Assembly: GCF_004364315.1 (NCBI RefSeq)
Contig: NZ_SOBR01000003.1
Span: 248,001 to 312,000 of the forward strand
Direction: 5' to 3'
DNA length: 64,000 bases
From: Chromohalobacter marismortui
Lineage (GTDB): Bacteria > Pseudomonadota > Gammaproteobacteria > Pseudomonadales > Halomonadaceae
Below are positions 36,236 to 40,197 of this stretch, in pieces. The position numbers and the translations under genes were made by a program. Position 1 is the first letter of the stretch; every line of letters starts with the position of its first letter. The notes under the pieces were generated by a model that saw nothing but the letters and a program-made list of their open reading frames with translations, was not told the origin of the DNA and searched no databases.

Positions 36236-36408
36236 CTAGACTCCTATTTGCTAACGACAGCGTGTCAAGACGCTGTACTGCCGCATGACGACTCACTATA
36301 CCATGGCCCGACAATGTCCACCGCCAGACGCCTACACCTTTAAAAAGCCACGAAAAAGACGATTTTTCTGATCCCAAGACCTGTCAGCAAGAACTTGGCC
36401 TAGGAATA

Positions 36409-36437
36409 TTGACAGGTTACGGGAGGCTACCTAGAAT
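36409..36437 (+). promoter_or_regulatory. Sigma-70 promoter of the met operon
   Basis: A perfect -35 TTGACA (36409-36414), a 17-base spacer and a -10 TAGAAT (36432-36437). The predicted start is near 36443, just ahead of the riboswitch. The rest of 36236-36408, between ribE and this promoter, shows nothing distinct. Confidence 0.88.
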
Positions 36438-36450
36438 TCACCGCTTATTG

Positions 36451-36519
36451 AGCGCCGATTTGTACCCAGATTGCGGGCGCACCCGAGCATGCCTCGGGAA
36501 AATGCCGCTAAAAGGGTGT
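36451..36519 (+). ncRNA. SAM-II-class riboswitch with an inserted hairpin
   Basis: The core landmarks of the SAM-II aptamer occur in order. The P1 strand GCGCC is followed by GATTTGTACCCAGATTGC, the closing strand GGCGC, and then AAAATGCCGCTAAAAGGGTG. ACCC (36464-36467) can pair with GGGT (36514-36517) as the pseudoknot. A 6-bp hairpin, CCCGAG-CATGC-CTCGGG (36482-36498), sits between P1 and the AATGCCGCTAAAAGG strand. The element lies between a consensus promoter and an intrinsic terminator, upstream of metNIQ, the expected target. No covariance model was run. Confidence 0.83.
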
Positions 36520-36532
36520 GTCCAGCGTTGAT

Positions 36533-36558
36533 GGCCACCCGTCTGGGTGGCCTTTTTT
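36533..36558 (+). terminator. Riboswitch-controlled intrinsic terminator
   Basis: A perfect 8-bp stem GGCCACCC / GGGTGGCC with loop GTCT is followed by six T, about 165 bases before metN. Its 5' half contains CACCC, complementary to GGGTG (36514-36518) of the aptamer pseudoknot. The same segment could therefore act as anti-terminator without SAM and be sequestered with SAM. Confidence 0.88.
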
Positions 36559-36724
36559 ATGGCCACAACCTGCAAATCCCGCCACACAGGCGATCCAGCC
36601 CCGTTACAATGCTGGCTTTCGCCACATGCGACGTCACCTCCTGGCATGACAAGCGTCGTCGCCCAAGATCGCCGACGCGTGCCACGGATCATGATGTCCC
36701 AACGCATCAACCCAAACGAAAACG

Positions 36725-37768
36725 ATGATCAAACTCGAAGGTGTCTCCAAAACCTATGGGAGCGGCCCTGAGGCTGTCCATGCCCTCAAGCATATCGACC
36801 TGGATGTGCCGAAAGGCGCCATCCATGGCGTCATCGGCTTGTCCGGTGCGGGCAAATCGACGCTGATTCGCTGCGTCAATCTCCTCGAGCGTCCGACCTC
36901 GGGGCGCGTCATCGTCGACGGCCAGGACTTGACCCGACAGGACAGCGAGGCCTTGCGCCAATCACGCCACCAGCTCGGCATGATCTTCCAGCATTTCAAC
37001 CTGCTTTCCTCACGCACAGTGTTCGATAACGTGGCACTGCCGCTGGAACTGATGGGGGTCTCGAAAAGCGAGATTCGCGAGCGTGTCGAACCGCTCCTGG
37101 ACCTCACCGGCCTGACCGACAAAGTGTCACAATATCCGGCACAACTCTCGGGGGGGCAGAAGCAACGCGTGGCCATCGCACGCGCCCTCGCCAGTCGCCC
37201 CAAAGTGCTGCTGTGCGACGAAGCGACCTCGGCTCTCGACCCGCAAACCACAGCGTCGATCCTCGAATTATTGCAGGACATCAACCGCAAACTGGGGCTG
37301 ACCATTCTGCTCATTACCCACGAGATGGAGGTCGTCAAGAGCATCTGCCACCGTGTCGGCCTGATCTCCGATGGCGAGCTGGTGGAAGAAGCCGACGTCG
37401 GCGACTTCTTCACCGCGCCCAGCACACGTCTGGGGCGTGAGTTTCTCAATGCGTTTCTCGAACTCGAGCCTCCGCAGGCACTGATCGAACGTCTCGAGGA
37501 AGCTCCTGACGAGCATACGCATCCCGTGGTACGTCTGGCGTTTTCCGGCGCCAACGTCGCCACCCCGCTCATCTCGCGCCTGGCACGCGAGAGTGGCGTC
37601 GATGTCAGCATCCTGCAAGCCAAGGTGGAATCGATCCAGGGCCGTACACTGGGCCTCATGATAGCCGAGCTCATCGGCACACCCGAGACCACGTCACAAG
37701 CCCTTGCACAACTCGAAGCTCACGATATCAATGTAGAGGTACTCGGCCATGTCCAGCGCAATGCTTGA
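36725..37768 (+). CDS. metN: Methionine ABC transporter, ATP-binding protein
   Basis: A 347-residue MetN. Walker A is GLSGAGKSTLIRCVN, the signature LSGGQKQRVAIARAL, Walker B VLLCDEATSALDP and the H-loop LITHEM. The C-terminal ~100 residues form the NIL/ACT domain that binds cytosolic methionine and inhibits transport. It heads metNIQ behind the SAM-II-type leader; transcript control is probably by termination. The ribosome-binding site is poor. Confidence 0.96.
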   Translation: MIKLEGVSKTYGSGPEAVHALKHIDLDVPKGAIHGVIGLSGAGKSTLIRCVNLLERPTSGRVIVDGQDLTRQDSEALRQSRHQLGMIFQHFNLLSSRTVFDNVALPLELMGVSKSEIRERVEPLLDLTGLTDKVSQYPAQLSGGQKQRVAIARALASRPKVLLCDEATSALDPQTTASILELLQDINRKLGLTILLITHEMEVVKSICHRVGLISDGELVEEADVGDFFTAPSTRLGREFLNAFLELEPPQALIERLEEAPDEHTHPVVRLAFSGANVATPLISRLARESGVDVSILQAKVESIQGRTLGLMIAELIGTPETTSQALAQLEAHDINVEVLGHVQRNA

Positions 37769-38402
37769 ACTGATCTTCAAGGCCACCCTCGACACACTCT
37801 ATATGGTGGCTCTTTCAGGAACCGTTTCGGCCTTGATCGGCATCCCCCTCGGGGTCCTGCTGTATGTCACCCGACCGGGACAGGTACTCGCACAGCCTTT
37901 CGCCCAGCGCGTACTCGGCATCATCACCAATATCGGGCGTTCGATCCCTTTCATCATTCTGATGGTGGCGATCATCCCCTTCACGCGGCTTATCGTGGGC
38001 AGCTCCATCGGTACCAATGCCGCCGTGGTGCCACTCATCATCGCCGCCATTCCCTTCGTCGCGCGCTTGGTCGAAGGCGCCCTCAACGAGATACCGCCGG
38101 GACTCATCGAAGCCGCTCAGGCGATGGGCGCCACCCCCATGCAGATCATCACCAAGGTGCTCCTTCCCGAGGCCAAAGGCGGCATCATCAACGGCCTGAC
38201 CATTACGGTGGTCACGCTGGTCAGCTATTCGGCCATGGCCGGTGCCGTTGGCGGCGGCGGCCTGGGCGACCTGGGCATTCGTTACGGCTACAACCGTTTC
38301 GAACCGATGATCATGCTCATCACGGTAGCGATACTGGTCGTCATGGTGCAGGGCTTTCAAAGCCTCGGCGACCGCCTCGTGCGCAAGGCCGATCATAAAT
38401 GA
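37749..38402 (+). CDS. metI: Methionine ABC transporter, permease
   Basis: A 217-residue permease with five hydrophobic segments. GIPLGVLLYVTRPGQ, IGRSIPFIILMVAIIPFTRL, the EAA loop EIPPGLIEAAQAMGATPMQI and SAMAGAVGGGGLGDLGIRYG are MetI signatures. The ATG at 37749 overlaps metN by 20 bases and has GAGG upstream; the ATG at 37761 (8-base overlap) is the alternative. Confidence 0.95.
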   Translation: MSSAMLELIFKATLDTLYMVALSGTVSALIGIPLGVLLYVTRPGQVLAQPFAQRVLGIITNIGRSIPFIILMVAIIPFTRLIVGSSIGTNAAVVPLIIAAIPFVARLVEGALNEIPPGLIEAAQAMGATPMQIITKVLLPEAKGGIINGLTITVVTLVSYSAMAGAVGGGGLGDLGIRYGYNRFEPMIMLITVAILVVMVQGFQSLGDRLVRKADHK

Positions 38403-38525: not shown

Positions 38526-39353
38526 ATGAAAGACACCCTGGCCCACGCCCTGCGTCCTGTTCGTCTTCTCGGCGCCGCCGCATTACTTGGTGCAGGCTTG
38601 ATCGCCGGCTGCGGAAGCGATGACGCCAATACGCAATCGATCAAGGTCGGCACCGTGGCAGGACCGGAAACGGACGTCATGAAAGTCGCCAAGCAAATCG
38701 CCAAAGAAGAATACGACCTCAATGTCGAAATCATTGAATTCACCGATTATGTCTCGCCCAATGCGGCGCTTGCCGATGGCAGCCTGGATGCCAATGCCTT
38801 CCAGCATGAGCCCTACCTGAACAGCATGATCCAGGATCGCGGCTACGATTTCGCCATCGCGGGCAAAACCTTCGTCTATCCGATCGGGGCCTATTCCGAG
38901 CGCTACGACACCATTGAAAACTTGCCCGACGGCGCCATCATTGCGCTGCCCAACGACCCATCCAATGAAGGGCGTTCGCTGATCCTGATGCACAACAAGG
39001 GGCTGATTGAACTCAAGGATCCCACCAATCTCGAAGCGACGCCCATCGATATCAGCAAGAACCCCCACAACTACGAGTTCCGTGAGATCGCCGCCGCGCA
39101 GCTGCCTCGCGTATTGCCCGATGTCGACCTGGCCTTCATCAACAACACCTTCGCCCAACCGGCGGGGCTCAGCCTGGATGACGCACTGATCAAGGAAGGC
39201 CCCGAGTCGCCCTACGTCAACTTGATCGTGACGCGTGAAGGCATGCAGGACAACAAGGCAATCCAACAGCTGGTTGACGCCTATCAATCGCCGGCGGTCA
39301 TCGACAAAGCCGCCGAATTGTTCAAGGGCGCTGCCGTACCTGGCTGGAAGTAA
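38526..39353 (+). CDS. metQ: Methionine-binding lipoprotein
   Basis: A 275-residue lipoprotein. The signal peptide ends in the lipobox LIAGC followed by GSDD. KVGTVAGPETDVMKVAKQIA, FTDYVSPNAALADGSLDANA and FQHEPYL are the NlpA/MetQ pattern. AAGGAG lies 8 bases from the ATG. The 123-base gap after metI holds TATAAT (38432-38437) and a bulged hairpin around AAAAGGCATAAATGCTTTT, so an internal promoter or processing site is possible. Confidence 0.94.
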   Translation: MKDTLAHALRPVRLLGAAALLGAGLIAGCGSDDANTQSIKVGTVAGPETDVMKVAKQIAKEEYDLNVEIIEFTDYVSPNAALADGSLDANAFQHEPYLNSMIQDRGYDFAIAGKTFVYPIGAYSERYDTIENLPDGAIIALPNDPSNEGRSLILMHNKGLIELKDPTNLEATPIDISKNPHNYEFREIAAAQLPRVLPDVDLAFINNTFAQPAGLSLDDALIKEGPESPYVNLIVTREGMQDNKAIQQLVDAYQSPAVIDKAAELFKGAAVPGWK

Positions 39354-39986: not shown

Positions 39987-40063
39987 TGGTAGGACCGAGC
40001 GGATTTGAACCGCTGACCTCCACGATGTCAACGTGGCGCTCTAACCAACTGAGCTACGGTCCT
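39987..40063 (-). tRNA. tRNA-Val (GAC), copy 2
   Basis: A 77-base cloverleaf with encoded CCA. The anticodon stem CCACG/CGTGG closes the loop TTGACAT, giving anticodon GAC. The T arm has GGTTCAAATCC and the D arm GCTCAGTTGGTTAGAGC. It is identical to the upstream copy at 40121-40197, 57 bases away. Confidence 0.97.
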
Positions 40064-40120: not shown

Positions 40121-40197
40121 TGGTAGGACCGAGCGGATTTGAACCGCTGACCTCCACGATGTCAACGTGGCGCTCTAACCAACTGAGCTACGGTCCT
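40121..40197 (-). tRNA. tRNA-Val (GAC), copy 1
   Basis: The same 77-base tRNA-Val with anticodon GAC and encoded CCA. It is first in a two-gene transcript that starts from the promoter at 40278-40305. Confidence 0.97.

Follow-up and report, generated by a model that had tools for sequence, protein, structure and literature searches.

Putative terminators were noted behind many SAM-II riboswitches in the first paper on the class (PMC1273637), a 2007 survey found SAM-II most often associated with terminators in alpha- and beta-Proteobacteria and only sporadic in gamma-Proteobacteria (PMC2258182), and the majority of SAM-II riboswitches are transcriptional according to the SAM-V structure paper (PMC6061858), as far as the extracts of these three papers go. 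A further survey, which included 12 Oceanospirillales genomes and various gamma-proteobacteria, reports SAM_alpha only in Rhizobiales and Rhodobacterales in the accessible part of its text (PMC4239095). In the crystal structure of SAM-V, the 3′ end of P1 leads into a P3 stem-loop, behind which adenines face P1; according to its authors, P3 is absent from SAM-II (PMC6061858). The SAM-II switches of Sinorhizobium meliloti metZ and metA are followed by an intrinsic terminator and have the riboswitch sRNAs RZ and RA1, for which, in the extract of the report, a trans role is only speculated and MetK binding was sought and not detected (PMC9373788). In Listeria, the SAM riboswitch SreA precedes a methionine ABC transporter and acts in cis by termination, and the terminated RNA pairs in trans with the prfA 5′ UTR about 80 nt upstream of the ribosome site, again as given in an extract (PMC8079631).

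The leader examined here lies in a 64,000-nt stretch of Chromohalobacter marismortui DNA, called the window below, where a promoter, a SAM-II core, an inserted 6-bp hairpin and an intrinsic terminator were all found at 36409-36558, ahead of metNIQ (Table 1). The first-pass annotation had listed a promoter, SAM-II strings, compatible P1 and pseudoknot pairing and a terminator, and each of these strings was recovered at its place. A promoter-like pair (at least 9/12) is present upstream of 102/102 parsed elements, compared with 4% of mononucleotide shuffles, and the start of metN is 167 nt past the final T of the T-run. Folding of the single sequence gave a z of -3.26, yet the fold obtained is not the aptamer. 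At Rfam's own cut-offs, only two tRNAs were detected in the whole window; two identical tRNA genes lie on the minus strand at 39990-40063 and 40124-40197, 60 bases apart.

Table 1. Features of the metN leader and of the genes behind it, in window positions.
Feature	Position	Strand	Remarks
Sigma-70-like promoter TTGACA-17-TAGAAT	36409-36437	+	TTGACA 36409-36414, TAGAAT 36432-36437, 17-nt spacer
P1 5′ strand GCGCC	36452-36456	+	partner 36476-36480; two P1 pairs vary on both sides among relatives
GATTTG, SAM-II triplex third strand	36457-36462	+	GATTT invariant and final G nearly so in alignment; aligns to RF00521
P2a 5′ strand TACCC	36463-36467	+	partner is GGGTG 36514-36518
P2 5′ strand ATTGC	36470-36474	+	TTGC invariant among relatives
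P1 3′ strand GGCGC	36476-36480	+	covariation with P1 5′ strand
Inserted hairpin (P3) CCCGAG-CATGC-CTCGGG	36482-36498	+	5/5 tested pairs vary on both sides
A-rich joint AAAATGCC, P3 to P2 3′ strand	36499-36506	+	one A invariant, the A before it at least 90%
P2 3′ strand GCTAAAA	36507-36513	+	with GGGTG, 99.9% identity in 90 relatives
GGGTG, P2a 3′ strand or antiterminator strand	36514-36518	+	pairs with TACCC or with CACCC 36536-36540
Linker TGTCCAGCGTTGAT	36519-36532	+	14 nt, nearly invariant (99.3% identity); candidate seed for ilvC-leader pairing; alternative anti-aptamer helix with P1 5′ strand
Intrinsic terminator stem-loop GGCCACCC-GTCT-GGGTGGCC	36533-36552	+	8/8 pairs in 88/90 relatives
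Terminator T-run T6	36553-36558	+	from the sequence
metN	36725-37768	+	best match NCBIfam TIGR02314, 472 bits, under model cut-off 499.7
metI	37749-38402	+	NF008049, above cut-off
metQ	38526-39353	+	TIGR00363 above cut-off; best match NF008285 (MetQ) under its cut-off

Compared with RF00521 (SAM_alpha) at relaxed thresholds, the window gave a match at 36452-36480 of 13.3 bits (E 1.6) against a cut-off of 36, and the window alone is therefore not acceptable as SAM-II by the Rfam test. Relatives without the hairpin behaved differently: all seven that were parsed match RF00521, four of them above the cut-off (L099 with 47.8 bits and E 3.6e-8, L105 with 38.9, L104 with 38.4 and L090 with 36.9 bits) and three below it (L095 and L096 with 29.6 bits each, L097 with 25.4). 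Since none of 13 hairpin-bearing relatives in one scan had an RF00521 match at E <= 5, the Rfam failure tracks the insert; the hairpin-bearing L110, L111 and L112 score 17.8, 16.8 and 16.8 bits. The element shares with RF00521 the P1 helix, GATTTG, TTGC, GCTAAA, P2a, a promoter just upstream, a terminator downstream and a methionine gene, and differs in the hairpin that separates P1 from the P2 3′ strand, in its metNIQ target and in its score below the cut-off. The pocket strings GATTT, TTGC and GCTAAA form invariant alignment columns, as SAM-II membership requires, and in the P1 helix that closes onto GATTT 99.1% of cells are paired and two pairs vary on both sides. For P2a, CCC:GGG pairing is possible in 59-60 of 60 relatives per pair and the outer two pairs in 43-45, with ACC:GGT in L104 and L105 (by eye), and because P2a is nearly unvarying in the family it receives little covariation support. 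The assignment to SAM-II by the first-pass annotation is upheld through this homology, and of the two Rfam models it had put forward, RF00521 matches all seven hairpin-less relatives and scores the window below its cut-off, and the SAM-V model (RF01826) found nothing at E <= 1 in 61 genomes of the family, nor in the window or the relatives scanned. Membership in SAM-V was rejected on that result (0/61). P2a does not hold the ribosome site here as it does in SAM-V; a terminator follows.

A covariance model built from 60 family aptamers detected matches at E <= 0.01 in 39/293 genomes of the order, 172/369 of the class and 34/299 of the phylum, these being overlapping sets that include family members. 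By comparison of the lists by eye, both models point to one place in at least 20 of the 24 genomes with an RF00521 score over the cut-off; the family model's match listed for G338 lies elsewhere, and its positions in G199, G216 and G305 are not among the matches listed. Judged by homology, the element is a variant SAM-II riboswitch that has a P3 stem at the position known from SAM-V, and is predicted to bind SAM; this identity is supported although the window itself fails the Rfam score test.

The 6-bp hairpin that had been read from the window sequence between P1 and the 3′ binding strand is backed by covariation in the alignment of Halomonadaceae metN leaders. Over 60 distinct aptamers, all five pairs at the foot of P3 vary on both sides with 82.7% of cells paired, and P1, P2a and P3 together reached a covariation score of 0.233, compared with 0.084 for shuffles and at most 0.093 for slid controls. 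The sequence of the insert is not conserved, and the stretch from P1 to the P2 3′ strand that contains it is the most variable of the element, with lengths of 4 to 159 nt in 102 parsed elements. Distinct inserts of at least 12 nt folded better than the mean of their own mononucleotide shuffles in 87/87 cases, 52 of them at p < 0.05. The longest, of 159 nt (L098:205-407), folds at -71 kcal/mol, with the pocket strings and the terminator still intact. We infer that the hairpin might serve as a passive spacer that tolerates changes in size. Outside the family, SAM-II elements among the matches listed are mostly 53-56 nt long and lack an insert. When 17 out-of-family matches of at least 65 nt, picked by length among the matches listed, were fetched, 14 (L275-L288) had a hairpin at the same site, 11 at p < 0.05; it is present without reaching that level in L278, L281 and L287, weak in L291 (p 0.29) and absent from L289, and L290 could not be parsed.

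The position of the insert is that of P3 in SAM-V, directly 3′ of P1 and followed by adenines and then by the P2 strand, with the adenines of SAM-V facing P1 in the extract of the structure paper (PMC6061858). In place of the hidden ribosome site of SAM-V there is a terminator here, and P3 has 6 bp, and is long in some relatives, against 3 bp in the SAM-V structure. A covarying P3 also departs from SAM-II as that extract describes it, and is absent in seven of the relatives; since relatives located before the same gene, metN, differ in having P3, it is treated here as a variable feature. The architecture had been called unusual, which is correct relative to SAM-II so described and not relative to the fold of SAM-II and SAM-V. 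An added stem that brings more pairing regions than a plain H-type pseudoknot is also known from the HLout pseudoknot of preQ1-II, which has an unrelated ligand and sequence, according to the available portion of that report (PMC11625349). No description of P3 in SAM-II was found in the open literature searched. The family carries SAM-II switches that score below the cut-off of the standard model owing to one inserted stem, and since SAM-II elements from outside the family can have a stem there too, the gap between SAM-II and SAM-V closes.

At E <= 0.01, RF00521 matched 105/274 genomes of the class, 24 of them over the cut-off, and 0/14 control genomes. The remaining 81 of the 105 have no match over the Rfam cut-off, and chance matches are possibly included among them. 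The class, Gammaproteobacteria, includes the former Betaproteobacteria, and SAM-II looks under-annotated in it. The first-pass annotation had regarded the host and the mechanism as unusual, and SAM-II as acting mostly on translation. An unusual host and an unusual mechanism are not supported: the matches in 105 genomes speak against the first, and the terminators already described behind SAM-II elements (PMC1273637; PMC2258182), together with the transcriptional majority stated in the SAM-V paper (PMC6061858), against the second. Host and mechanism are ordinary. No paper on a SAM-II riboswitch in Halomonas, or on a Halomonas metN riboswitch, was found in the open literature searched.

Conservation within Halomonadaceae was evaluated with a 171-nt DNA query (36400-36570) against 151 genomes of the family, of which 111, from 18 of 24 genera, gave matches. 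Among 80 of 118 stretches listed, GCTAAAAGGGTGTGTCCAGCGTTGA was matched in at least Halomonas, Vreelandella, Billgrantia, Chromohalobacter, Salinicola, Cobetia, Onishia, Modicisalibacter, Aidingimonas, Litchfieldella, Phytohalomonas, Terasakiispira and Bisbaumannia, and the window version is nearest, by eye and among the matches listed, to six Chromohalobacter sequences. About 100 loci of the family keep the pocket and P1, nearly all with the terminator, and in 98/103 parsed elements the stretch fetched contains metN behind the element in the same orientation, in one case 1.2 kb away. Over 90 aligned elements, a set that excludes those without a terminator, GATTTG, TTGC, GCTAAAAGGGTG, the linker and the terminator hardly vary, with 99.9% identity for GCTAAAAGGGTG and 99.3% for the linker, and 52% for the last columns past the T-run. 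As for a further copy, RF00521 gave three other matches in the genome that the window comes from, all of them weak (12.3 to 17.5 bits).

The switch would operate as follows. When SAM is abundant, it would stabilize the pseudoknot (P1 with P2/P2a), which would tie up GGGTG; held in the pseudoknot, GGGTG could not form the antiterminator with CACCC, and the downstream terminator would then stop transcription and leave metNIQ off. Without SAM, the 5′ terminator arm would be taken up by GGGTG, and transcription would run into metN. The alternative pairing of GGGTG with CACCC had been suggested from the window alone, and all five of its pairs are possible in 89/90 elements; CC:GG lengthens the helix in 87, and L090 and L099 have another extension, UGUC:GACA. 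When the transcript stops short of the 3′ arm of the terminator, the antiterminator is the lowest-energy fold in 58/90 elements and within 1 kcal/mol of it in 75/90. In the cut transcript of the window, however, the antiterminator is 1.8 kcal/mol worse than the best fold and has a pairing probability of 0.07, and the winner is an anti-aptamer helix formed by the linker with the P1 5′ strand and GAT; the suggested pairing is possible nearly throughout the family, although for the window a different ligand-free fold is lowest. Locking P2 removed the antiterminator and left the terminator formed in all five elements folded. Mean energies over 97 elements were -18.2 kcal/mol for the terminator and -10.5 kcal/mol for the antiterminator, a gap of about 8 kcal/mol, and the decision must therefore be kinetic.

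The lowest-energy fold of the full-length window leader contains the terminator with or without P2, as might be expected if the terminator were constitutive and the leader chiefly a source of sRNA, with SAM altering only the stability or exposure of the RNA. A similar view has been discussed for metA of S. meliloti, and in five Salinicola genomes the element and its terminator are intact with metN about 7 kb away. This explanation nonetheless appears unlikely: the antiterminator is possible in 89/90 elements and has two different extensions, and in other Salinicola genomes (G055, G077 and G111) the elements lack a terminator or are decayed. What was observed is homology to SAM-II, a conserved pocket, covarying P1 and P3, conserved potential for terminator and antiterminator pairing, and a position before metN. 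We therefore consider it very probable that the element is a cis-acting SAM-II switch that turns metNIQ off at high SAM by means of its terminator, with SAM binding and the direction of the response deduced from the sequence.

Among the Salinicola loci (L115-L118, L071, L075, L076, L092 and L098), the intact riboswitch and terminator of the five genomes mentioned above adjoin ribE, and metN lies behind inserted genes. One of the inserted genes encodes a cytosine/purine permease, which is read towards metN in the three cases checked. The element distant from metN is a candidate stand-alone SAM-responsive sRNA.

Weak secondary matches of the 171-nt query led to the leader of a second gene, which we take to be ilvC from its N-terminal sequence and which presumably encodes ketol-acid reductoisomerase. 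This leader contains, upstream of the start codon, the sequence GGCCATCAACGCTGACA, which, apart from one bulge, is complementary to the linker and to the first bases of the terminator arm in antisense orientation; in the window's own genome the exact 17-mer is found at G000:C9:101838-101854 and ends 39 nt before the ilvC start (101893). The site is preceded by a hairpin whose stem is 97.5% paired and in which 5/6 pairs vary on both sides (46 sequences). As seen in L107:311-343 and in L358 from the window's own genome, this ilvC leader element consists of a hairpin GCGCCG/CGGCGC with a loop ending in AGA, followed by GGCCATCAACGCTGACA. A conserved ilvC leader element of Halomonadaceae was not met in the literature searched. 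Extra matches in L107-L109 and L113 had raised the possibility of a second riboswitch, which was rejected since they proved to be the antisense ilvC site.

Conserved complementarity to the leader of a second mRNA, as expected of a trans-acting riboswitch RNA of the SreA type, was found here as well, and we think it reasonably likely, from sequence comparison, that the terminated metN leader RNA also pairs with ilvC mRNA, adding to the cis switch without replacing it. The two sites tend to occur together. An ilvC match was present in 143 genomes, and for the 106 of them whose ilvC leaders were compared, which are not a random sample, a strict edit threshold gave 64 genomes with both sites, 6 with the metN site only, 6 with the ilvC site only and 30 with neither (Fisher p 1e-14, genomes taken as independent). 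Counting the wobble form of genus g6 changed these numbers to 66, 4, 7 and 29, and correction by hand for G030 and G137, which have a metN match in the DNA search, to 67, 5, 6 and 28 (Fisher p 6e-15, genomes again taken as independent, which they are not, nor were they randomly chosen). The association extends within genera, with 7 both and 5 neither in g19, 18 both, 2 neither and 1 metN only in g20, and 5 both, 6 neither and 5 ilvC only in g3, and of the 24 genus labels covered, 14 have both sites. There are exceptions in both directions, as G003, G027 and G130 of the Salinicola group have an ilvC site and no detected riboswitch, and g9, g13 and g22 the reverse. The two sites also change together: a 2-nt deletion in the metN linker of g7 (GTTGAGCC) has its counterpart in the ilvC site (GGCTCAAC), and in g6 the combination of three A>G changes with one inserted G results in 20 contiguous pairs including G.U. 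Against this, G112 and G128 have mismatches without compensation, and in G145 both sites have changed and most of the pairing is lost. The duplex had a median energy of -47.1 kcal/mol, compared with a median shuffled mean of -27.1, and was better than all 100 dinucleotide shuffles in 66/77 genomes. Complementarity within the window's own genome is not exceptional, since pairing of equal strength is seen for 1 of 1694 window segments, and 48 of 1704 do as well as the 14-nt seed alone. The linker is 99.3% identical though mostly in the antiterminator loop (90 elements); its mean unpaired probability rises from 0.33 in the free full leader to 0.72 with P2 locked, and it is less paired by at least 0.2 in 85/90, so SAM binding would be expected to expose it. 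Pairing mainly through the terminator arm is less likely than through the linker, because the ilvC bases opposite the arm differ between genera (GGAAGGCC, GGGTCGCC, GGGTTGCC, CGGTGGCC) and ATCAACGCTGA of the ilvC site varies less.

An antisense relation, joint loss and joint change would equally result if the shared sequence were a double-stranded site for a DNA-binding regulator, present in opposite orientations at metN and ilvC without any contact between the RNAs. The kind of change seen at the ilvC site bears on this question. The 33 differences from consensus seen in 62 genomes comprise 22 changes of the A>G or C>T kind, which keep a G.U pair, 3 of the opposite transitions and 8 transversions. 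A single g6 genome contributes four of the 22, one by way of an inserted base; without g6 the counts are 18, 3 and 8, with a binomial p of 0.011 if composition alone predicts 60:40 and genomes are treated as independent. A DNA site leaves this strand bias unexplained, although the bias is modest and weaker when each position and change is counted once (7 to 3, with 5 transversions, or 6, 3 and 5 without g6). Further, the metN copy overlaps a terminator arm deep within the leader and has one extra central base, the ilvC copy sits behind a covarying RNA hairpin, and the 17-mer with at most one mismatch is present in 54/101 genomes, mostly once. Taken with these points, a DNA-binding site seems to us improbable as the sole origin of the shared sequence, and the metN leader RNA is probably also a partner of the ilvC leader. 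That the leader is in full a two-way regulator, which would terminate metNIQ transcription in cis with SAM and pair with the ilvC leader in trans, linking methionine and SAM to branched-chain amino acid synthesis, we rate at slightly better than an even chance.

If the ilvC pairing is true, a metabolite switch of Gram-negative bacteria would double as a regulatory RNA whose target is conserved, and whether terminated riboswitch RNAs have any trans role would become directly testable by base swaps in two short sites. SreA does not belong to the SAM-II class, and the metN leader would then be its SAM-II counterpart: both are SAM switches of a methionine transporter that act via termination, with trans pairing to the 5′ UTR of another mRNA, here deduced by comparison, and they differ in that the target is prfA in the one and the metabolic gene ilvC in the other. 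The S. meliloti switches share the terminator, and the extract of that report mentions no inserted hairpin and names no mRNA target (PMC9373788). No earlier SAM-II switch with a conserved mRNA target in trans was found in the literature searched, and the papers on ilvC with riboswitches or sRNAs in the open literature searched did not, by titles and abstract openings, concern the metN and ilvC leaders as a pair.

Aptamers without a terminator were detected in L104, L105 and L110-L112; L101 is degenerate, and L100, L103 and L106 are decayed, the aptamer of L103 still scoring 54.7 bits with the aptamer model after loss of its terminator. In L110, L111 and L112 the aptamer is kept before metN and both the terminator and the linker are gone. 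The ilvC site is gone in the genomes of these three loci (G138, G083 and G117), and is degenerate in G051, as is the element at L101.
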